This document shows positions 11,605 to 63,109 of a DNA stretch of 64,000 bases, piece by piece. Made by a program: the position numbers and the translations under genes. Within the stretch, counting starts at the first letter, position 1. Each line of letters starts with the position of its first letter. Source of the stretch: Rugalucina vietnamica (taxonomy: Eukaryota > Mollusca > Bivalvia > Lucinida > Lucinidae); assembly GCA_964017185.1 (NCBI GenBank), contig OZ024873.1:48408760-48472759 (forward strand), in the 5' to 3' direction. A model generated the notes under the pieces. It saw only the letters and a list, made by a program, of their open reading frames with translations, did not search any database and was not told where the DNA came from.

Positions 11605-11800
11605 GTGCATAGGCCAAGTGGTAAGGTACAGTCCTCCAGAGTGAGTAGTCCGGGGTTTGTTATCTATTTTCGCCATGTAGCGTCCTTAAGCAAGACACTA
11701 AAATCTCCCCATAGTAGGAAACTGTGGCTCCATCTGGACTGGACTGAAAATTTTTTTTACTGGGGTGTTATTAAAGCAATATATAAATCAAATCAAAATG
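11605..11800 (+). repeat. SINE-like element
   Basis: 'ggccaagtggtaaggtacagtcctccagag' looks like a worn tRNA head. 'gtccttaagcaagacacta', 'aaactgtggctccatct' and 'ggggtgttattaaag' are the body/tail also seen at 14036-14228. Confidence 0.5.
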
Positions 11801-12323: not shown

Positions 12324-12565
12324 TTGAGGGGCCTCATGAGAAAACCAACAATTTGAATATGCGAAAACAAAGGCGCAGACCAGCTTCGCGGTAACCGTGA
12401 AGCTAAGCTGATCAGCGCCTTTGTTTTCGCTACACAGATTGTTCACTTCCTCTTCTTCTTTAATCCGAAATTTCAAGCTTATATCCTGCTTCTGTGACTG
12501 TACAGACCGGTTTGTGTCGGACCTGTTCGGAAACCACATTGTTGGTTTTCCCACGAGGCGGCTCA
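12324..12565 (-). repeat. Family A foldback MITE
   Basis: Reverse full-length copy: left TIR TGAGGGGCCTCATGAGAAAA, right TIR TTTTCCCACGAGGCGGCTCA, with 'gaccggtttgtgtcggacctgttcgg' near the right end. The copy ends 14 nt before exon 4, so it supplies nearly all sequence where a branch point would normally lie. Confidence 0.85.
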
Positions 12566-13164: not shown

Positions 13165-13316
13165 ACATTTTCACCCAGATATCTGACTCGAGCGGTTTAT
13201 TGGTGCGACAGAAGTTTGAACAATATTTACAGGACATCCTGGCACTACCTACGGCAGTGTTTGAAGGACCCTCATTTGGTTACAACGATACTGCAGTCAG
13301 AGCATGCTTTGATATG
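13165..13316 (+). CDS. DTNB: Dystrobrevin exon 5
   Basis: Acceptor 'taattttcag', donor 'gtaatg', phase in 1, out 0. Reads [22 protein letters not shown], then [20 protein letters not shown] and ends ACFDM (residues about 139-189). The stretch '[13 protein letters not shown]' is almost invariant between dystrobrevins and dystrophins. The 'ISDSSG' loop is the usual position of the second EF-hand-like helix pair. Confidence 0.95.
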
Positions 13317-14035: not shown

Positions 14036-14228
14036 CTTAGTGGTAGAGTAAACAACTCTGGTTCGAATGGTTATGCGTTCGATAGCATCCCTCCCTTGTA
14101 TAGTGTCCTTGAGCAAGACACTTTAGCTCTCCTTACTGCTGGTAATCTGGTAAATACCCAGGAAGCTATGGCTCCATCCAGTCATGAGAGAGAAATTTTT
14201 GAATGGGGTGTTAAACCATAACCAAAAC
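14036..14228 (+). repeat. tRNA-derived SINE-like element
   Basis: Worn A box 'gcttagtggtagagtaa', B-box-like 'ggttatgcgttcgatagc', body 'gtgtccttgagcaagacactttagctc', tail 'ggggtgttaaaccata'. Same tail type as 11605-11800. Confidence 0.55.
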
Positions 14229-14230
14229 AA

Positions 14231-14616
14231 GGGAAGTGTAAGTACATGTATCAACAACTTTATTTTTACAGAAAAGTGGTGTAAATATCAACAACTGTCT
14301 ATCACAGAAAAGTGGTGTAAATATCAACAACTTTATATTCCAGGAAAGTGGTGTAAATATCAACAACTTTCTATTCCAGGAAAGTGGTGTAAATATCAAC
14401 AACTTTCTATTCAAGGACAGTGGTGTAAATATCAAGAACTTTCTGTTACAAAAAAGTGGTATAAATATAAAAAAAACTTCTGTTAATATCAAGAACGTTC
14501 TGTTTCAGAAAAGTGGTGTAAATATCAACGTCTTTCTGTTACAGAAAAGTGGTGTAAATATCAACGCCTTTCTGTTACAGAAAAGTGGTGTAAATATCAA
14601 CAACTTTCTGTTTCAG
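14231..14616 (+). repeat. In-frame tandem array of exon 6 acceptor plus exon start
   Basis: Nine units directly upstream of exon 6, starting at 14272, 14308, 14344, 14380, 14416, 14452, 14509, 14545 and 14581. All are 36 nt except the sixth, which is 57 nt; a worn partial unit precedes at 14231. Each copies the first 27-30 nt of exon 6 and ends in a pyrimidine run plus AG. Candidate AGs end at 14271, 14307, 14343, 14379, 14415 (aag), 14508, 14544, 14580 and 14616; the unit ending at 14451 has lost AG (acaa). All unit lengths are multiples of three and the frame shared with exon 6 has no stop from 14272. A typical unit translates KSGVNINNFLFQ. Confidence 0.9.
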
Positions 14617-14725
14617 AAAAGTGGTGTAAATATCAACAACTTCCTCAATGTGTTGGTGTCTGACCCTGGTCCACAATGTCTCATGTGGCTCCCAGTTCTG
14701 CATAGAATGGCTCAAGTGGAAAATG
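14617..14725 (+). CDS. DTNB: Dystrobrevin exon 6 (shortest form)
   Basis: Acceptor 'ttctgtttcag' at 14616, donor 'gtaagc', phase in 0, out 1. Reads KSGVNINNFLNVLVSDPGPQ, then CLMWLPVLHRMAQVEN (residues about 190-225). It aligns with '[35 protein letters not shown]' of vertebrate dystrobrevin. The vertebrate alignment needs only this copy of the KSGVNINNF segment, so 14617 is the ancestral start. Upstream acceptors would add 12 to 115 residues in frame. Confidence 0.92.
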
Positions 14726-24667: not shown

Positions 24668-24860
24668 TGTTTTTTTGTATTGAGGTTTAACATCCCAATC
24701 AACAATTTTTCAGCCATGTCCTCAGGGCTTTAACCAATACTCAGGTGAGTTAATGTGTCTTGCAGAAGGACACAACATAGTGTGTCGTATGAGGATCAAA
24801 CCCAGGACCTATTGATTCGGAGTCTGTCTATACCACCAGACCACCACACGACCCCTTGTA
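24668..24860 (-). repeat. tRNA-derived SINE, inverted
   Basis: Read on the minus strand it has an A-box-like 'gtcgtgtggtggtctggtgg' and a B-box-like 'gggtttgatcc', then 'tgtccttctgcaagacac' and 'ggttaaagccctgag'. It ends near the A-rich/T-rich 'tttttttgtattgaggttt'. Confidence 0.5.
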
Positions 24861-26006: not shown

Positions 26007-27749
26007 ATAGCCCCGCTTTGAAAAAGTGGGGCTATACTGGATTCACCATGTCCTTCCGTCGTTCCGTCCTTCCGTCATTCTGTCCTTCCGTTATTCCGTC
26101 AAAATTTCATTTCCACTCAATATCTTGAGAACCAGTTTACAGAATCTGACCAAATTTTGTATGTACATTAACATTGAGAAGATCTAGCTTGGGATTGTTG
26201 ACCGTCATTTTTCGCAAAATTTTGACAGAGTTACTGCCCTTGATTGACGTCAGAATTTCGTTTCCGCTCAATATCTTGAGAACGAATTGACAGAATCCGA
26301 CCAAATTTTGTATGCACATCATCATTGACAAGATCTAGCTTGGGATTGTTACCCGTCATTTTTCGCAAAATTTTGACGGAGTTACGGCCCTTAATTGACG
26401 TCAGAATTTTGTTTCCGCTCAATATTTTGAGAACGAATTGACAGAATCAGACCAAATTTTTTGTGCACATCAACATTAACAAGATCTAGCTTGGGATTGT
26501 TACCCGTCATTTTTCGCAAAATTTTGACAGAGTTACGGCCCTTGATTGACGTCAGAATTTTGTTTCCGCTCAATATCTTGAGAACGAATTGACAGAATCT
26601 GACCAAATTTTGTATGTACATTAATGTTGACAAGATCTAGCTTGGGATTGTTGACCGTCATTTTTCGCAAATTTTGACAGAGTTACTGCCCTTGATTGAC
26701 GTCAGAATTTTGTTTCCGCTCAATATCTTGAGAACGAATTGACAGAATCCGACCAAATTTTGTATGCACATCATCATTGACAAGATCTAGCTTGGGATTG
26801 TTACCCGTCATTTTTCGCAAAATTTTGACGGAGTTACGGCCCTTGATTGACGTCAGAATTTTGTTTCCGCTCAATATTTTGAGAACGAATTGACAGAATC
26901 AGACCAAATTTTGTGTGCACATCAACATTAACAAGATCTAGCTTGGGATTGTTACCCGTCATTTTTCGCAAAATTTTGACAGAGTTACGGCCCTTGATTG
27001 ACGTCAGAATTTTGTTTCCGCTCAATATCTTGAGAACGAATTGACAGAATCTGACCAAATTTTGTATGTACATCAACGTTGACAAGATCTAGCTTGGGAT
27101 TGTTGACCGTCATTTTTCGCAAAATTTTGACAGAGTTACTGCCCTTGATTGACGTCAGAATTTCGTTTCCGCTCAATATCTTGAGAACGAATTGACAGAA
27201 TCCGACCAAATTTTGTATGCACATCATCATTGACAAGATCTAGCTTGGGATTGTTACCCGTCATTTTTCGCAAAATTTTGACGGAGTTACGGCCCTTGAT
27301 TGATGTCAGAATTTTGTTTCCGCTCAATATTTTGAGAACGAATTGACAGAATCAGACCAAAGGCCTTTTGTGTGCACATCAACATTGACAAGATCTAGCT
27401 TGGGATTGTTACCCGTCATTTTTCGCAAAATTTTGACGGAGTTACGGCCCTTGATTGACGTCAGAATTTCCTTTCCATTCAATATATTGAGAACGAATTG
27501 ACAGAATCCGACCAAATTTTGTGTGCACATCAACATTGACAAGATCTAGCTTGGGATTGTTACCCGTCATTTTTCACAAAATTTTGACAGAGTTACGGCC
27601 CTTGATTGACGTCAGAATTTTGTTTCCGCTCAATATCTTGAGAACGAATAGACAGATCTAGCTTGTGGTAGTTACCCGTCATTGTCTTTTTCACCCTGCA
27701 AAAAAGCTGAGAAGCGGGGCTATAGTCAGATTCTCTGACAATTCTAGTT
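26007..27749 (+). mobile_element. HINE/Helitron-like element with 151-bp satellite core
   Basis: Starts 'tatagccccgctttgaaaaagtggggcta' and 'ccttccgtcgttccgtcc'. Ends 'gagaagcggggctatagtcagattctctgacaattctagtt', with a subterminal inverted match to the start (agccccgctt / gaagcggggct), a 3' hairpin GTCAGA-ttc-TCTGAC, and a terminal CTAGT. This layout (subterminal inverted repeats, internal tandem array, 3' hairpin) is that of HINE/pearl-type non-autonomous Helitron relatives. It carries no protein. Confidence 0.65.
26100..27680 (+). repeat. 151-bp tandem repeat with trimeric higher-order structure
   Basis: The motif 'agatctagcttgggattgtt' starts at 26180, 26331, 26482, 26633, 26783, 26934, 27085, 27236, 27391 and 27542, with a truncated copy at 27654: ten full units, spacing 151 (one 150, one 155). 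Marker bases recur every third unit. Units 1, 4 and 7 have 'tgtatgtacat' and 'gttgacc'. Units 2, 5 and 8 have 'tgtatgcacatcatcatt'. Units 3, 6 and 9 carry 'tgtgcacatcaacatt'. So the homogenised unit is a ~453-bp trimer repeated three times. Minus-strand open frames across it are by-products. Confidence 0.9.
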
Positions 27750-30363: not shown

Positions 30364-33186
30364 ATGTCATTCAAACTAAGTGACTTTATTGCTGCGCCTT
30401 CTCAGGAGCTGTTAGATAAGGCCAAAAAGAGTGACCTCTTAGACATAGCTGATCATTATGGGTTGTCAAATATCAAGACTTCCATGTTAAAACATGAAAT
30501 TAAGAACATTTTGATTCAGTTTTTTGTTGACGAGGAAATTTTTGATTCCTCGGCTACTTCTCAGATTCTAGTCACTCAGACTGACTTGCAGTTGAGGGAA
30601 CTAGAAATCAAAAGACAAATTGAGATGGAAAAACTAAAATTTGAGTATGAAGAAAGAATAAGGGCAGAAAAGGCCGAAAGGGAAGAAAGAATAAGATTGG
30701 AAACTTTAGAACGGGAAGAAAGAATGCATAAACAAAAGTTAGAAATGGAAGAACGAGAGAAGGAAAAACAAAGAGAATTAGAACGAGAAAAAATTGAGTT
30801 AGAAAAAGAAAAATTAGAAAGAGAAGAAAGGCTTGAAATTGAAAAAGAAAAATTTAAATTTGAAATTGAAGAAAAAGAAAGAGAAAGGCAATTTCAGTTA
30901 AGAATGAAGGAAATTGAACTTAATGACAAATCAAAATCAAAATCTTTGCCTTTGGCTACTAGTACAGTATTTGATGTCACAAAACACATTCGTCTCGTTC
31001 CTCCATTTCAAGAAAAAGAGGTTGACAAATATTTCTTACATTTTGAGAAGGTGGCAGAAAACTTGAAATGGCCAAAGGAGCACTGGACCTTGCTTTTGCA
31101 AAGTGTTGTAATTGGTAAAGCTCGAGAAATTTACACTCAGCTTTCTCTTGAGCAAAGCTCAGATTATGATACAGTAAAGGAATTTATCCTTAAGGCTTAT
31201 GAGCTGGTCCCTGAGGCATACAGGCAGAAATTTAGAGACTGTAGAAAAGAACATGACCAGACTCATGTTGAGTTTGCTAGAACAAAAGAGCAACTATTTG
31301 ATAGATGGTGTTCTTCAAAGAAAGTAGGTTCTGATCATGCAAAGCTAAGGCAGCTCATGCTTGTTGAAGAATTCAAACGGTGCATAAATTCTGATGTTAA
31401 GGCTTTCTTGAACGAAAGAGAAGTTGAAAACTTGGAAACAGCAGCACGTTTAGCTGATGACTATGCTTTGACTCATAAGGCTTCATTTGTCAACAAGCCA
31501 TATCCTAGGAAACCATATAACCCTCAATCAAAGCAAATTACCCCTCAGTCAAAACCATATTCCCCTCAGTCCGGTCCCAAAGCCAATCCCAGTAATCCAA
31601 CTGACAATTCCAGTCCAAAACCCAAATTTTCTAGTGAAAACAAAGGACAAAATCCCTTATCCCAGCCAATTTGTAATTATTGTAAGAAAACTGGCCACAT
31701 TATTTCTGAATGTTTGGCACTGAAACGAAAGAAAGAAAGAGAAAATCTAGATAGTGCTAAACCGACAGGTCTCACCTCCTTAAAGGCTAAACCACAGTCT
31801 TGTATCCAGGAAGAAAACCCTATACTGACCAGAACTTGTAAAGAGTCAGTCTCTGAGGATTCTATTATGGAGATTTATGAACCATTCTTATCAGATGGTT
31901 TTGTGTCACTTAACAGTGACTCTGCCCAGTCTACCCCCATCAAAATCTTACGAGATACCGGAGCTTCTCAATCCCTTATCTTGGCAGATACCTTGCCATT
32001 TTCCGAGAAGTCTTCTTCTGGGACAAGTGTCCTTATCCAGGGCGTAGAGTGTGGATTTGTTAACGTACCCCTCCATAATATCTATTTGTCCTCAGACTTA
32101 GTTAAAGGTCCCGTGGCTGTAGGTATTAGACCTTCCTTACCTTTTAAAGGTATTCATTTGCTGTTAGGCAATGATTTGGCAGGAGATAAGGTTGTGGTAA
32201 ACCCACTTTTGACCAGCACACCATGTGTTGATCAACCGCCTGATCCCATTGAGCAGGAAATTCCTGACCTTTACCCTTCTTGTGCTGTTACTAGGGCAAT
32301 GGCTAAGAAAGCCAAATTATATGATGGGATGCAGGACATAAATTTAACTGACACTTTGATAGGTCAGTCCTTTAATAAAGAGATTTCAACATCTCTTTCC
32401 CCTAGTCAGTCTGATATTCAGACTGACCCTAGCAATCCAAGGTCGGGGTCAGAAAATGACCTTTCACCCTCAACGTCAAACGATCAAGGTCATGACCAGA
32501 TGTCAAGGTCACAGCTTTGTAAAGAACAACACAGTGATTCTGAGATCTCGCCTTTATTTGAAAGGGCTTTAGATGAAAAAGAAGTATCCCAGGTCCCTGT
32601 TTGCTATTATGTCAAAAATGGCATATTAATGAGAAAATGGTGTCCTCCAGATGTCTCAGCAGAAGATGAGTGGACTGTTAACCACCAAATTGTGATCCCT
32701 AGGGTTTATCGCCCTGAAATCTTAAACTTGGCCCATGAAACTCCAATGTCAGGCCATTTAGGTGTAAATAAGACCTATCACAAGATCCTTAATTATTTCT
32801 ACTGGCCAGGAATAAAATCTGATGTATCTCAACACTGCAAATCCTGCCACACTTGTCAGATGGTAGGAAAACCCAATCAGACTATTCCTAAAGCTCAGTT
32901 ACAGCCCATTCCTGCCTTTGATGAACCTTTCAGCAGAGTGATTATTGATTGTGTAGGTCCCTTACCCAAAACAAAGAAAGGTTGTGAATATCTTCTGACC
33001 ATAATGTGTGCTTCAACTCGCTTTCCTGAAGCTATCCCACTCAGAAATATCAAGGCTAAAACAATAGTTAATGCACTTGTGAAGTTCTTCACATTTGTAG
33101 GCCTCCCAAAAATCTATACAGTCAGACCAGGGCTCAAATTTTATGTCAGGAATTTTTCAGCAAGTTATGTACGAACTTGGAATTAA
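30364..33186 (+). CDS. Retrotransposon ORF1: Gag, protease, integrase N-part
   Basis: 940 codons. Residues about 75-195 are a long Glu/Lys/Arg-rich coiled coil. A CCHC zinc knuckle (C437, C440, H445, C450) marks the nucleocapsid end of Gag. An aspartic protease follows with D-T-G-A at 531-534 and an LLGNDLAG motif about 70 residues on. After a Ser/Pro-rich linker comes the integrase HHCC zinc finger (H791, H798, CxxC near 825) and the first catalytic Asp in 'IIDCVGPLP' (D862). The frame then leaves the integrase sequence at about 33112-33116, in a run of five A, just before the second catalytic Asp, and ends 24 codons later. The start is the first ATG after the LTR. Either a one-base change or a frameshift site. 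Confidence 0.92.
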   Translation: MSFKLSDFIAAPSQELLDKAKKSDLLDIADHYGLSNIKTSMLKHEIKNILIQFFVDEEIFDSSATSQILVTQTDLQLRELEIKRQIEMEKLKFEYEERIRAEKAEREERIRLETLEREERMHKQKLEMEEREKEKQRELEREKIELEKEKLEREERLEIEKEKFKFEIEEKERERQFQLRMKEIELNDKSKSKSLPLATSTVFDVTKHIRLVPPFQEKEVDKYFLHFEKVAENLKWPKEHWTLLLQSVVIGKAREIYTQLSLEQSSDYDTVKEFILKAYELVPEAYRQKFRDCRKEHDQTHVEFARTKEQLFDRWCSSKKVGSDHAKLRQLMLVEEFKRCINSDVKAFLNEREVENLETAARLADDYALTHKASFVNKPYPRKPYNPQSKQITPQSKPYSPQSGPKANPSNPTDNSSPKPKFSSENKGQNPLSQPICNYCKKTGHIISECLALKRKKERENLDSAKPTGLTSLKAKPQSCIQEENPILTRTCKESVSEDSIMEIYEPFLSDGFVSLNSDSAQSTPIKILRDTGASQSLILADTLPFSEKSSSGTSVLIQGVECGFVNVPLHNIYLSSDLVKGPVAVGIRPSLPFKGIHLLLGNDLAGDKVVVNPLLTSTPCVDQPPDPIEQEIPDLYPSCAVTRAMAKKAKLYDGMQDINLTDTLIGQSFNKEISTSLSPSQSDIQTDPSNPRSGSENDLSPSTSNDQGHDQMSRSQLCKEQHSDSEISPLFERALDEKEVSQVPVCYYVKNGILMRKWCPPDVSAEDEWTVNHQIVIPRVYRPEILNLAHETPMSGHLGVNKTYHKILNYFYWPGIKSDVSQHCKSCHTCQMVGKPNQTIPKAQLQPIPAFDEPFSRVIIDCVGPLPKTKKGCEYLLTIMCASTRFPEAIPLRNIKAKTIVNALVKFFTFVGLPKIYTVRPGLKFYVRNFSASYVRTWN

Positions 33187-41088: not shown

Positions 41089-43691
41089 GACCTAAGTCCA
41101 ATTCGCATGCGCCAAAAATACATGCGTGTAAATATACTCCAGTGTGCAAATTTTACTCGGGGTAAGCAAATGGCGCATGCGAACGCAAATACACACCGGA
41201 GTATATTTACATATGGGTAAATTTACTCCTGGGTCTGACCAGATGCAAATTTTATTTTTACAAATACACACGTGTTAATTTACTATTTTGTCCCATGTGA
41301 ACGCAAAGTAAAATTTACCCATGAGTATTTTTAATTTAAGTCAAAATTCTGCTTTTAGATAACAAATTTTCACATGTTTATACCCCCCGCAAAACGAAGT
41401 TTTTAGGGGGGTATACTGTTTTCAGCCTGTCCGTCATTCTGTCATTCCGTCATTCCGTGATTCCGTCATTCCGTCAACATTTTGACATCTTTGCTGAATA
41501 ACTTAAGTAGTTTTTGCCAGATGTTCTTCAAATTTTCAACACACCTGCACCATTAGACAACACAAGTGTGATATGAATTTAGGGGCCAAAGGGACAGTTT
41601 TGCAAGAGTTATGGGACTTTTTAAAACCTATACATAGAATGTTTGCCATAGTGCTAATAGTGCATACTATGTGAAATCAACTCCTCCTACAGCTTTTAAT
41701 ATTCTCTTTTGATACTTTGCAGATATGTGCCAGAGATGTTGAAGATGTGCATGAAGAAGTCTTATGCTGAAAAAATGAATTTTGACAAATTTACAGCATT
41801 TTGAACTTAGCCAATTTTCAATAATTGCCATATTCAACAGTGGTTGGTAGTGCATAGTTTGTGAAATCAACTCCTCCTAGGGCTTTCAGTATTTCTTTTC
41901 AATACTTTGCAGACATGTTTCACACATATTGAAGATGTGCATGAAGAATTATAATGATGAAAAAATAATTTTTGACAAATTTACAGCATTTTTCAACATA
42001 GCCATTTTTTGACCATTGCCTATATACAATAATGGTTGGTAGTTCATAGTTTGTGAAATCAACTTCTCCTAGGACTTTCAGTATTTCTTTTCAATACTTT
42101 GCAGACATGTTCCACACATATTGAAAATGTGCATGAAGAATTATAATGCTGAAAAAATATTTTTTGACAAATTTACAGCAATTTTTAACATAGCCATGTT
42201 TTGACCATTGCTTATACAAGAATGGTTGGTAGTGCATATTTTGTGAAATCAACTCCTCCTAGGGCTTTCAGCATTTCTTTTCAATACTTTGCAGACATGT
42301 TCCACACATATTGAAGATGTGCATGAAGAATTATGATGCTGAAAAAATAATTTTTGACAAATTTACAGTATTTTTCAACATAGTCATTTTTGACCATTGC
42401 TTAAATACATTACTGGTTGGTAGTGCATACTTTGTGAAATCAACTCCTCCAAAGGCTTTCAGTATTTCTTTTCAATACTTTGCAGGCATATTCCATACAT
42501 ATTGAAGATGTGCATGAAGAATTATAATGCTGAAAAATTAATTTCTGACAAATTTACAGCATTTTTTAACATAGCCATTTTTTGACCAATGCTTATATAC
42601 AGTAATGGTTGGTAGTGCATATTTTGTGAAATCAACTCCTCCTAGGGCTTTCAGTATTTCTTTTCAATACTTTGCAGACATGTTCCACACATATTGAAGA
42701 TGTGCATGAATTATTATAATACTGAAAAAGTGATTTTTGACAAATTTTCATCATTTTTCAACATTGCCATTTCTTGACCATTGCTTATATACAATTGTGG
42801 TTGGTAGTGCATACTTTGTGAAATCAACTCCTCCTAGGGCTTTCAGTGTTTCTTTTAAATTCTTTGTAGATTTGTTCCAGATATATTTTAGATGTGCATG
42901 AATAATTTTCATGCTGAAAAGTTAATTTTTGACAAATTTACAGCTTTTATTTAACTTAGCCATTTTTTTTTACCATTTCTCATAATAACAATAATGATCA
43001 TAGTGCATACAGTGAAATCAACATCATTCTTTCAGTATATTCTTTTAATATCTTATAGATGCGACTGGCATGCTGAGGATGTACATGAAGAATTATAATG
43101 CTGAAAAGATATCTTTGTCAAATTTTCTGCATGTTTGACTAAGGAAGTTATTGGCCAGCTTCAGATAATTTTGCGGGGGGTATCCTGAAAGCTTTGCTTG
43201 CAGCCAATTTCTAGTTTGTTCATAACTGATTATATGACAGTTGCTGAAACTATGGACATTGTTGCTAATAAGAGTTTATTGCCATTCATCACATTTTAGA
43301 TCATATGGAGTGCAAACAGCCACACTATTTCTTCATCATTCTTGGTGAGGATTCTTGGGGAATTTTAACAGTAATTCCTTGTGAAAGGATGATAAAAGGG
43401 AACTGTATAACTGCTAAGGTTATGCCTGACCATTACATGATTCTCATCTGCTGCCAAAATCTACAAGAACACCTTGAAGCAGCCTCTTCTTGTTTTGCAA
43501 ATACAGAAAACTTAAATGAACAGGTTTTAATCCAGAAATGATAAATTTACATACAAAAATACTCCTGGTGATAAAACCCATGCGAACACAATTTAAATTT
43601 ACTCACAGGTTGATTTGCACACTGGAGTATATATACACACTGAAGTATATTTACACGCGTGTATTTTTTGCGCATGCGAATTGGACTTAAG
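41089..43691. mobile_element. TIR DNA element (~2.6 kb) carrying a nested HINE-like element
   Basis: Left end 'cctaagtccaattcgcatgcg' with 'atgcgtgtaaatatactccagtgtgcaaat' and right end 'gtatatttacacgcgtgtat' with 'cgcatgcgaattggacttaag' are inverted over about 60 bp. 'tttttctt' flanks both sides (41081-41088 and 43692-43699), a possible 8-bp target duplication. Without the nested element (41380-43216) the host would be about 770 bp and non-coding. Confidence 0.55.
41380..43216 (+). mobile_element. HINE/Helitron-like element with ~190-bp tandem core
   Basis: Starts 'tataccccccgcaaaacgaagtttttaggggggtata' and 'ccgtcattccgtcattccgtc'. Ends 'gcggggggtatcctgaaagctttgcttgcagccaatttctagtt', i.e. 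an inverted match to the start, hairpin AAGC-ttt-GCTT, then CTAGT. The core has about eight diverged units of roughly 190 bp, each with 'gtgaaatcaactcctcct', 'ttcttttcaatactttgcag', 'gatgtgcatgaagaatta' and 'tttttgacaaatttacagc'. No long open frame. Confidence 0.65.
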
Positions 43692-54799: not shown

Positions 54800-56035
54800 A
54801 GATGGCTCAAGTCTAGTTGTATATGTTTAAGATAGTTTAAGTCTTGTAGTATATGTTTTAGATGGCTTGTCTGGTAGTATATGTTTAATAAGATGGTTTA
54901 AGTCTTTTAGTATATGTTTAAGATAGCTCAGGTCTGGTAGTAATGTTTCAGGTGGTTTAAGTCTGAAAGCATTATATTTTAGTAACATTTGTTGTAGATG
55001 GCTCAAGTCTAGTAACATTTGTTGTAGATGGCTAAAGTCTAGTAACATTGGTTTTACATTTAATAGTAGCATTTGTTTTAGATGGCTCATTCAGTGCTGT
55101 TGTATTTGTTTTGGATGGCACAAGTATTGTAGCATTTGTTTTAGATGGCTCAAGTGTAGTAACATTTGTTTAAGATGGCTCCAGTCTAATAACATTTGTT
55201 TTGGATGGCTCAAGTCTTAGTAACATTTGTTTTAGATGGCTCAAGTCTTAGTAACATTTGTTTTTGATGGCTCAAGTCTAGAAACATTTGTTTTAGATGG
55301 CTCAAGTCTAGTAACATTTGTTTTAGATGGCTCAAGTCTAGTAACAATTGTTGTAGATGGCTCAAGTCTTGTAACATTTGTTTTAGATGGCTCAAGTCTA
55401 GTAACATTTGTTTTAGATGGCACAAGTCTTGTAATATTTGTTTTAGATGGCACAGGTCTAGTAATATTTGTTTTAGATGGCTCAAGTCTAGTAACAATTG
55501 TTTTAGATGGCTCAAGTCTGGTAGCATTTGTTTTAGATGGCTCAAGTCTAGTAACATTTGTTTTAGATGGCTCAAGTCTAGTAACATTTGTTTTAGATGG
55601 CTCAAGTCTAGTAACATTTGTTTTAGATGGCTGAAGTCAAGTAACATTTGTTTTAGATGGCTCAAGTCTAGTAACATTTGTTTTAGATGGCTCAAGTCTA
55701 GTAGCATTTGTTTTAGATGGCTCAAGTCTATTAACAATTGTTTTAGATGGCTCAAGTCTAGTAGCATTTGTTTTAGATGGCTCAAGTCTAGTAACATTTG
55801 TTTTGGATGGCACAAGTCTGGTAGCATTTGTTATAAATGGCTCAAGTGTTGTAGCATATGTTTTAGATGGCACAAGTCTAGTAACAATTGTTTAAGATGG
55901 CACAAGTCTGGTAGCATTTGTTTTAGATGGCACAAGTCTGGTAGCATTTGTTTAAGATGGCTCAAGACTAGTAACATTTGTTTTGGATGGCACAAGTCTA
56001 GTAACATTTGTTTTGGATGTCTAGTAACATTTGAT
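54800..56035 (+). repeat. 30-bp minisatellite, about 40 copies
   Basis: Unit 'ttttagatggctcaagtcta' plus 'gtaacatttg'. Very regular at 55200-56020, worn at 54800-55200. The 30-nt unit is a multiple of three, so long repetitive open frames appear on both strands (e.g. 55236-55634 +, 55210-55827 -). There are no splice signals or domains, so I do not call them genes. Confidence 0.92.
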
Positions 56036-59720: not shown

Positions 59721-59956
59721 AGATCCGCCTCGTGGCAAAACCAACAATGTGGTTTCCGAACAGGCCCGACACAAACCGGCCTGTACAAGCACAGAAAAGA
59801 GCTAGAATCTTGAAATTTTGGATTTAAGTAGAAGAGGAATTGTACTATCCGAGTAGCGAAAACAAAGGCGCTGATCAGCTTCGCGGTTACCGCGAAGCTG
59901 ATCTGCGTCTTTGTTTTCGCATATGCAGATTTTTGGTTTTCCCATGGGGTGGCTCA
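59721..59956 (+). repeat. Family A foldback MITE
   Basis: 'agatccgcctcgtggcaaaac' left (TIR start altered), 'ggtttccgaacaggcccgacac', perfect palindrome, right end 'cccatggggtggctca'. Starts 12 nt after exon 11. Confidence 0.88.
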
Positions 59957-60372
59957 TAAGCAGGAATTTTACTTATGTCAAATGGAATTACCTTTGTTTC
60001 AAATATAATCTGTGTGCTATGATATGATTTGGGATTCTCTCGGACATATTCTAATACCATGCTGTCCTGTAATAGGGGGAACATGAATGCCCACGGTAGA
60101 GCATTCATTGGACTCCAGAGAAACTTTTAGCAAGACGCATTTACTCCCAATAGTACTGATGAAGATCTCAAGAAGCGGTGGCTTCAGTCTGAAAAACTGT
60201 TGACAGACATTTTAAGTAATAATATATACACATACAAGACACTTTTAAAAGTATTTTAGGCTTATTTGAATTTAATACAAAGCACTCTTTACATTCAAAT
60301 TAAGGAAAATATGCACAATAATCTGTTTCCAGATTTTTTTTTGTCATTGATCAGTGATATGATTTTACATAA
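59957..60372. other. Unannotated intron stretch
   Basis: No repeat or exon recognised. Confidence 0.4.
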
Positions 60373-60929: not shown

Positions 60930-61100
60930 TTCAAAGGTTTTGTTTGTTTTGTGGTTTAATATATCCGTCAACAATTTTCCTGTCATGTCATGTGGGGGCC
61001 ACACCTTTCTGGTTACTTACAAATACTATGGGGAGTTAAGGTGTCTTTCTCAAGGACACAGCAAGGTTCAAACCCAGGACCTCTTAATTCTGAGTGCACA
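60930..61100 (-). repeat. tRNA-derived SINE, inverted, plus tail
   Basis: Minus strand B-box-like 'gggtttgaacc', 'tgtccttgagaaagacacc', and the far end 'ttgtggtttaatata'. Same class as 24668-24860. Confidence 0.5.
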
Positions 61101-61261: not shown

Positions 61262-61706
61262 AATCAGCCTACCTCACCCCGCTCTACCCCACAGGACAGT
61301 CCCAGAAGCTTCAGTCTTTCCCCCACAAATATTCCTCCACAGACACGATCTAGTGCACCGGTGGAAAATAAAACTAGTTTAGACTACATAACACCTGTGA
61401 GAAACAGTGCCCCACTGACTAGTGTGTCTAATTATAGTTCGGAACAATATCAAATCTACACACCTCATAAATCTAGTCTACCGGCTCCGACACCAAATAC
61501 TCCGGCGATGGAATCGTCAATGTTATCGGGACTGGAAGGTGAAGTACAGACGGCATTTAGTCAGCCGTCAAGTGCAGCACTGAATGTGCGGAACCTGCGT
61601 AATGATCTGCTAGTGGCTGCAGATTCTATCACGGGTGCAATGTCTTCACTAGTGAAGGAGCTGTCGGAGAATAGTGCCAGTGAAGACGAAGATGATAATT
61701 TAAATG
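61262..61706 (+). CDS. DTNB: Dystrobrevin exon 13
   Basis: Acceptor 'ctaacctatttcag', donor 'gtaagt', phase in 0, out 1. 148 codons (residues about 490-637): a Ser/Pro/Thr-rich stretch ([20 protein letters not shown]...), then '[10 protein letters not shown]' and the conserved '[20 protein letters not shown]', '[20 protein letters not shown]'. It aligns with vertebrate '[25 protein letters not shown]'. The last 117 nt and the donor are repeated three times downstream. Confidence 0.95.
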
Positions 61707-62090
61707 GTAAGTAGACAACCTGCGTAATGATCTGTTAGTGGCTGCGGATTCTATCACGGGTGCAATGTCTTCACTAGTGAAGGAGCTGTCAGAGAATAGT
61801 GCCAGTGAAGATGAAGATGATAATTTAAATGGTAAGTAGACAACCTGCGTTATGATCTGTTAGTGGCTGCAGATTCTATCACGGGTGCAATGTCTTCACT
61901 AGTGAAGGAGCTGTCAGAGAATAGTGCCAGTGAAGATGAAGATGATAATTTAAATGGTAAGTAGACAACCTGCGTAATGATCTGTTAGTGGCTGCAGATT
62001 CTATCACGGGTGCAATGTCTTCACTAGTGAAGGAGCTGTCAGAGAATAGTGCCAGTGAAGATGAAGATGATAATTTAAATGGTAAGTAGA
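61707..62090 (+). repeat. Three tandem copies of the exon 13 3' end with donor
   Basis: Period exactly 125 bp; donors 'aatggtaagtag' at 61707 (exon 13), 61832, 61957 and 62082. Copies share changes absent from exon 13 (ctgttagtg, tcagag, gaagatgaa), so they were amplified after the first duplication. No pyrimidine tract or acceptor precedes each copy. Reading past the first donor meets TAG at once, and 125 is not a multiple of three, so the extra copies cannot add residues by intron retention. Confidence 0.9.
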
Positions 62091-62141
62091 CAGTGGGTGA
62101 AAATGAGGCTGCTTGGGGATGTCCGCTACATCAGGATGATT

Positions 62142-62377
62142 TGAGCCACCTCGTGGGAAAACCAACAATTTGGTTTCCGAACAGGTCCGACACAAACCGG
62201 CCTGTAAAAGCACCGAAGAGAGCTAGAAGCTTGAAATTTCGGATTTAAGTATAAGAGGAATTGTACTATCCGAGTAGCGAAAACAAAGGCGCTGATCAGC
62301 TTCGCGGTTACCGCGAAGCTGATCTGCGCCTTTGTTTTCGCCTATGCAGATTGTTGGTTTTCCCATGGGGCGGCTCA
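62142..62377 (+). repeat. Family A foldback MITE
   Basis: TGAGCCACCTCGTGGGAAAA / TTTTCCCATGGGGCGGCTCA, perfect palindrome 'gatcagcttcgcggttaccgcgaagctgatc', flanks TT / TT. Confidence 0.92.
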
Positions 62378-62528
62378 TTTCTGTGTGAAGAGCACAAAAT
62401 GCTCAGAAACCACAGTACAGTTAATGATGTCAATGCTGTTTCTGCCCAACAAGATATGTTTTTATTTCTATTACCACCCAACAAGATAGTAATTGCTGTT
62501 ATTTGACATTATCTTGTTCCATATTCAG

Positions 62529-62647
62529 GTGATTTAGAGATAGTAGACAGCAGTATGATGCAATCCATAGAAAACCTGACTAGTTGGCAGAGAGAAGTAC
62601 AGCGCAGACTGGGCCAGGAGGCAGAGTTTATCTCTGAAAAGTGGTAA
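62529..62647 (+). CDS. DTNB: Dystrobrevin exon 14 (terminal, first copy)
   Basis: Acceptor 'ttccatattcag', phase in 1. Reads G-DLEIVDSSMMQSIENLTSWQ, then REVQRRLGQEAEFISEKW and stop TAA (residues about 638-676). An amphipathic helix rich in Q, E and R, plausibly coiled coil. I see no close vertebrate counterpart. A possible donor lies just before the stop (gaaaagtg|gtaaca), so the exon may instead continue to exons outside the window. Confidence 0.8.
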
Positions 62648-62671
62648 CAGTAATGACATTTAAGAAATGTC

Positions 62672-62757
62672 CTCAAACCAGAGAAGTCCTGGCTAGTTGG
62701 CTGAGAGAGGTACAGTGGAGACTATGCCAGGAAGCAAAGTTTATCTCTGAATAACAG
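62672..62757 (+). pseudogene. Partial copy of exon 14 without acceptor
   Basis: 'accagagaagtcctggctagttggctgagagagg' to 'tttatctctgaataac' copies the second half of exon 14, without the 'gtgatttagag' start and without a splice acceptor. Confidence 0.75.
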
Positions 62758-62811
62758 TAATGACATTTGAGAAATGGTAACAGCACTGACATTGTCTTCT
62801 TCTGTATTCAG

Positions 62812-62924
62812 GTGATTTAGAGATAGTAGACAGCAGTATAATGCAGACCAGAGAAGACCTTGCTAGTTGGCAGAGAGAAGTACAGTGCAGACTGGGCCAG
62901 GAAGCAGAGTTTATCTCTGAATAA
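62812..62924 (+). CDS. DTNB: Alternative terminal exon 14b
   Basis: Own acceptor 'ttcttctgtattcag', phase in 1 as exon 14, open to TAA at 62922-62924. Reads G-DLEIVDSSIMQTREDLASWQ, then REVQCRLGQEAEFISE. It differs from exon 14 at several residues and lacks the KW end. Use instead of exon 14 would give a slightly different C-terminus. Expression not provable here. Confidence 0.55.
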
Positions 62925-62981
62925 CAGTAATGACATTTGAGAAATGGTAACAGCACTGACATTGTCTTCTTCTGTATTCAG

Positions 62982-63109
62982 GTGATTTAGAGATAGTAGA
63001 CAGCAGTATAATGCAGACCAGAGAAGACCTTGCTAGTTGGCAGAGAGAGGTACAGTGGGGACTAGGCTACGTAGCAAAGTTTATTAGCTCGACTGCACGA
63101 AGTGCATAG
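62982..63109 (+). CDS. DTNB: Alternative terminal exon 14c, end replaced by a repeat
   Basis: A 170-bp-offset copy of 14b with an identical acceptor. The first about 25 codons match 14b, then the frame changes to VQWGLGYVAKFI and runs into a repeat starting 'agctcgactgcac' near 63086, stopping at TAG 63107-63109. Could be an exonised repeat end or a dead copy. Confidence 0.45.

Follow-up and report, generated by a model that had tools for sequence, protein, structure and literature searches.

The tandem array that precedes exon 6 of a dystrobrevin gene in the clam Rugalucina vietnamica is probably a mirage minisatellite of an intron-exon boundary, whose copies would most likely be spliced out with the intron. 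Such an array would have begun when a stretch spanning the 3′ splice boundary of the exon was duplicated in tandem; it would then have become a minisatellite and, as the similarity of its units suggests, have grown by slippage or unequal exchange. By analogy with lancelet mirages and with the junction in related proteins, splicing would most likely be directed mainly to position 14617, whose acceptor is the only one joined directly to the full exon, and the copies would stay in the intron. If one of the three closest strong acceptors were chosen now and then, the protein would gain 12, 24 or 36 residues in a loop, which would probably be tolerated.

Structure of the gene and of the array before exon 6

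The window, the whole stretch of 64,000 nt that was analysed, carries on its plus strand a gene corresponding to a bivalve dystrobrevin, the exons of which were placed by tblastn with the protein P0001 and two named proteins. The protein assembled from these exons is 84% identical to P0001 over 92%, the best match among those listed, followed in the same list by the dystrobrevins of Ruditapes (71%), Mactra (70%), Mya (70%) and Dreissena (66%). P0001 comprises 644 residues on a contig of 2234 nt and is therefore taken to be a transcript of a relative. Exon 5 (13165..13316, plus strand; numbered as in the initial annotation) ends in phase 0 with the residues ACFDM and was delimited by its splice sites and by tblastn with P0001 (98% over 13167-13316). 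Exon 6 (14617..14725, plus strand; 109 nt, KSGVNINNFLNVLVSDPGPQCLMWLPVLHRMAQVEN) has the same junction as in P0001 and an end placed by sequence, and the canonical join of the two exons would read TTTGATATG to AAAAGTGGTGTAAATATCAACAACTTCCTCAATG.

The array consists of nine units, eight of 36 nt and one of 57 nt; it measures less than 400 bp, and Tandem Repeats Finder places it within 14249-14642. A regular unit is composed of the first 26 nt of exon 6 and 10 nt of the intron end with its acceptor. On the plus strand, units 1 to 5 are located at 14272..14307, 14308..14343, 14344..14379, 14380..14415 and 14416..14451, the irregular unit at 14452..14508, and units 7 to 9 at 14509..14544, 14545..14580 and 14581..14616; the first 26 nt of unit 9 are identical to the exon, and this unit closes with the acceptor of the real exon copy, which starts at 14617. 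All units but one terminate in AG, unit 4 in the form CAAG; the exception is unit 5, which has lost its AG and ends in ACAA, with the CAA ending at 14451. A join between units would read TTTCAG or TTACAG followed by AAAAGTGG, and a join to GAAAGTGG would indicate unit 3 or 4. For the 57-nt unit, the best reading is a fusion of two units with a loss of about 16 nt and a net gain of 1 nt, as this alignment scores 57, compared with 37 for one unit with a 21-nt insertion, under a scoring scheme of our own choice. Upstream of unit 1, the segment 14232..14271 (plus strand), whose end is the most upstream acceptor of the array, may be a decayed further unit; its likeness to the units begins at 14249 in blastn (14249-14290), and the earlier part was matched by eye.

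This structure agrees with the initial annotation, which had described nine units copying the 3′ splice site and the exon start, gave for each AG the position of its G, and recorded the loss of one AG. As had also been claimed, splicing at the eight upstream AGs would lengthen the protein by 12 to 115 residues, and all unit lengths are multiples of three in a frame that is open throughout, from 14242 to 14725, the nearest stop upstream being a TAA at 14239.

Just upstream of the array lies an interspersed element at 14101-14230, perhaps starting at about 14035, that appears tRNA-like by eye and has diverged copies near 11678-11770, 24684-24773 and 60940-61059; its blastn likeness to these copies stops near 14230. 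ARAGORN found no tRNA within the window. A target-site duplication of this element was considered as the seed of the repeat, and no clear one was seen by eye.

Boundary-spanning repeats in this gene and in lancelets

Mirage minisatellites have been described in lancelets for Adh3, the globin genes Gb6 and Gb9, TnC and PGBD5, and they were reported, from RT-PCR of globin transcripts and from data on Adh3, to leave regular splicing undisturbed (excerpts of PMC3087553 and PMC3902484). According to the same excerpts, the unit number of one globin gene was 6 in one haplotype and 3 in another. For PGBD5, normal splicing was inferred, and one annotation, without RNA support, called the repeats an exon (PMC3902484, in excerpt). 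As far as these portions of the papers go, the clam array shares with the lancelet mirages the tandem copies of an intron-exon boundary, the involvement of both 5′ and 3′ boundaries, the presence of AG or GT signals in many units, and the homogenisation of neighbouring units (PMC3087553, PMC3902484). Its unit spans the boundary (26 nt from the beginning of the exon, 10 nt from the end of the intron), acceptor and donor boundaries are both duplicated within one gene (14272-14616 and 61592-62092), and neighbouring units are closer to each other than in shuffled order (P = 0.011 over the eight regular units). Unlike the lancelet mirages, the clam array has a unit of 36 nt that is in phase, a frame that is open throughout, and a bivalve host, and the lancelet findings may not carry over to 36-nt units. 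Length instability and splicing have been studied in the lancelet mirages.

The other arrays of the same gene argue for the mirage reading. The donor-side array (61592..62092, plus strand) consists of four 125-nt copies, 98% alike, of an exon end and its 5′ splice site. Its period does not keep the frame. Past the first donor comes an in-frame TAG, which only that donor avoids, so that no later donor would yield the full protein. A third array (62529..63084, plus strand; period 170 nt) comprises a later exon and partial copies of that exon, of which two have an acceptor of their own (62812 and 62982). Tandem arrays make up 12.1% of the window, and 2 of the 23 listed exon boundaries lie inside arrays, compared with 2.8 expected by rotation, a count in which four acceptor positions deviated by 1 to 6 nt from the final ones, some exons were omitted, and the exon at 62529 was not included since it lies just outside its Tandem Repeats Finder row. 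An enrichment of arrays at exon boundaries was rejected on this count. Boundary-spanning arrays are thus what is expected in an array-rich genome, and that one of the three is in frame is unsurprising.

Large satellite-like arrays also occupy introns of this gene, at 26097-27656, 41658-42968 and 54800-56019, with periods of 151, 192 and 30 nt. Several introns carry an element with terminal inverted repeats (GAGCCGCCTCGTGGGAAAACCAACAA...), seen by eye for example at 59724-59958, 62138-62388 and 12330-12565, which looks like a MITE. An intronic ORF of coiled-coil-like sequence at 30541-30981, with weak tblastn matches, derives perhaps from a retroelement.

Introns or exon changes arising from tandem arrays were reportedly described by Zhuo et al. 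in 2007. Internal tandem repeats in genes can carry or create splice sites, as stated in the excerpted part of PMC2812944; in contrast to introns formed from such arrays, an existing acceptor appears to have been multiplied here. No new intron is needed, since the protein junction aligns without gaps to that of relatives (the intron position in DNA was compared for P0121, a genomic ORF that covers exon 6 in another relative and has no array). Short-distance tandem acceptors (the NAGNAG class) likewise place several in-frame AGs before one exon, but their spacing is 2-12 nt by the TassDB2 definition as excerpted, whereas the AGs of the clam array are 36 nt and once 93 nt apart and therefore lie outside this class. 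Intron sliding in Drosophila (PMC2891723) and worm minisatellites (PMC4039745), judged from excerpts of these papers, are parallels no closer than the mirages. Among the open-licence papers listed, which in one case were 15 of 67, no case of mirage repeats in bivalves was found, and the descriptions concern lancelets only. The present case suggests that mirages also occur in bivalves, where one gene may carry several and related species perhaps have them at different exons. If so, clam genomes rich in arrays would be well suited to studying how splicing proceeds amid many near-identical acceptors and whether arrays of this kind ever become protein.

Acceptor strength and the exon 5-6 junction in related proteins

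Scored with a matrix from only 13 other acceptors of the dystrobrevin gene, the acceptors leading to 14509, 14545 and 14581, at the ends of the 57-nt unit and of units 7 and 8, reach 10.8, 11.0 and 11.2, compared with 10.9 for that of 14617 at the end of unit 9. Further upstream, the scores are 9.4 (unit 3), 8.7 (unit 2), 4.3 (the first array acceptor, leading to 14272), 3.2 (unit 4) and 0.0 (unit 1). Because the leave-one-out scores of the 13 real acceptors run from -2.9 to 10.9, the weak acceptors of the array could also serve. The AG-free stretch of each array acceptor is 27-29 nt long (13 nt for 14509). No array acceptor has a yTnAy motif at a distance of more than 10 nt from its AG, and 3 of the 13 other acceptors are likewise without such a motif.

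Splicing tends toward the first AG past the branch point (PMC1431707, in excerpt), so that the choice of acceptor depends on where the branch point is located. Strictly read, this scanning rule speaks against the mirage reading, because only a branch point within the last unit, which contains no yTnAy motif, would lead to 14617, and an earlier AG would be preferred from a branch point farther upstream.

It is conceivable, if rather unlikely, that several acceptors are used in parallel to yield a ladder of dystrobrevin isoforms, in 12-residue steps within an EF-hand loop and with a range set by the unit number. The three acceptors that score like the real one and the open frame over the array are consistent with such a ladder, and so is the predicted fold: in the structure model of P0001, the junction (residues 182/183) lies between helices at 173-179 and 188-197, and residues 182-184 form a three-residue turn (pLDDT of 77 and 89 by block, with a mean of 62 over the model as a whole). 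The junction is canonical in P0001 and in eight named bivalve proteins, save for one additional residue in Mactra, which agrees with the mirage reading. Among the 122 of 179 proteins that matched the flanking pattern, 116 show the usual spacing; the others are Mactra (+1), a lancelet (+5), the octopus protein P0031 and the cuttlefish protein P0154 (each with +13), and two gene models of doubtful quality (+18 and +37). The cephalopod-like P0024 does not have the 13 residues of P0031 and P0154, and their presence or absence at this junction looks, from the protein sequences, like alternative splicing. In dystrophin, 3 additional residues stand three positions beyond the junction. Such inserts indicate that the neighbourhood tolerates additional residues, which keeps alternative use of the acceptors feasible. 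On the other side, the units show no purifying pattern, and no repeat-bearing protein occurs among the matches listed, although these lists hold no full-length protein of R. vietnamica. Proteins with exon 6 repeats were found neither among the best 120 of 7004 matches (7996 candidates scored), nor in 2 matches from a second search (7981 candidates scored), nor among the 59 matches listed from 76 candidates. No related DNA was found in viral and prokaryote collections.

Similar copying appears at exon 5 in genomic ORFs of apparent relatives, either species or alleles. P0162, P0163 and P0170 carry three copies, two copies and one copy of the exon 5 start, so that P0162 and P0163 have two and one extra in-frame copies of about 30 residues each; the copies in these two ORFs are preceded by VIS or AIS, except for the first in P0163, at which the ORF starts. 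The exon 5 protein of P0170 is identical to that of the window. P0162 and P0163 were found through their open frames and are no argument for frame preservation, and acceptor bases are not readable from protein. It is tempting to speculate that a splice-acceptor minisatellite acts as a genetic length dial, in which a unit number that changes fast between individuals sets an in-frame isoform ladder of 12-residue inserts in an EF-hand loop; arrays of this kind would have arisen at two exons of the gene in related clams, and cephalopods have a comparable insert at the same spot, but we regard this idea as doubtful.

Reading frame and divergence of the units

The initial annotation had called the preservation of frame across all units unexpected and suggestive of selection or of very recent growth. 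The first suggestion is not supported. With a phase 0 intron and a period of 36 nt, every copy falls in frame without selection. When counted against a majority consensus (with ties), the eight regular units contain 14 distinct changes, 12 nonsynonymous, 2 synonymous and none to a stop, compared with 19 to 29% synonymous changes and 3 to 4% stops expected without constraint. The probability of no stop is 0.57 to 0.65 for 13 to 15 changes and about 0.5 for 18. No purifying selection on the units is visible in these 14 changes, which provide little power. The frame starting at 14232 is also open across the array, save for one stop inside the 57-nt unit, so that openness is less special than it seems; the third frame has a TAA in every unit. 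The case shows that an open frame over a short-period array is weak evidence of coding function.

It could still be proposed that selection keeps the frame so that long forms made by mis-splicing stay translatable, even though they serve no function themselves. All units have lengths divisible by three, including the 57-nt unit, whose two proposed indels would cancel each other. However, this is expected anyway from a single 36-nt period with few indels and a probability of no stop of about 0.6, and the array at the donor side, in this gene as well, does not keep the frame. Such selection was rejected as not needed, and we consider it improbable.

The suggestion of recent growth fared better in part. 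Local growth is borne out by the likeness of neighbouring units (P = 0.011), whereas "very recent" is made doubtful by a mean pairwise difference of 12.3% among the regular units, with a range of 1 to 7 bases. The pattern is that of ordinary minisatellite turnover and is not obviously recent. Positions 4-20 are invariant across the eight regular units (P = 0.002 for 14 changes), and the effect fades to P = 0.33 when four hand-mapped changes of the 57-nt unit are added. Their reading as a branch-point signal was rejected, as it is significant only without that unit. The excess of changes in the 10-nt intron part of the unit (7 of 14, compared with 3.9 expected; P = 0.065) was likewise set aside.

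Constitutive use of the acceptor of 14272, reached by scanning from an upstream branch point and always adding about 115 residues, is also an improbable reading. The scanning rule (PMC1431707, in excerpt) and the open frame over the whole array would allow it, and its score of 4.3 falls within the range of real acceptors; on the other hand, its yTnAy motifs are as close as 4 and 10 nt to the AG, its score is below those of the acceptors adjoining the exon, and the units show no constraint. An assembly artefact, through collapse or expansion of an error-prone repeat as in the lancelet mirage that was misassembled in a genome draft (PMC3087553, in excerpt), is very improbable for an array of this small size with units that differ from one another, and ORFs on other contigs have a similar structure at exon 5.
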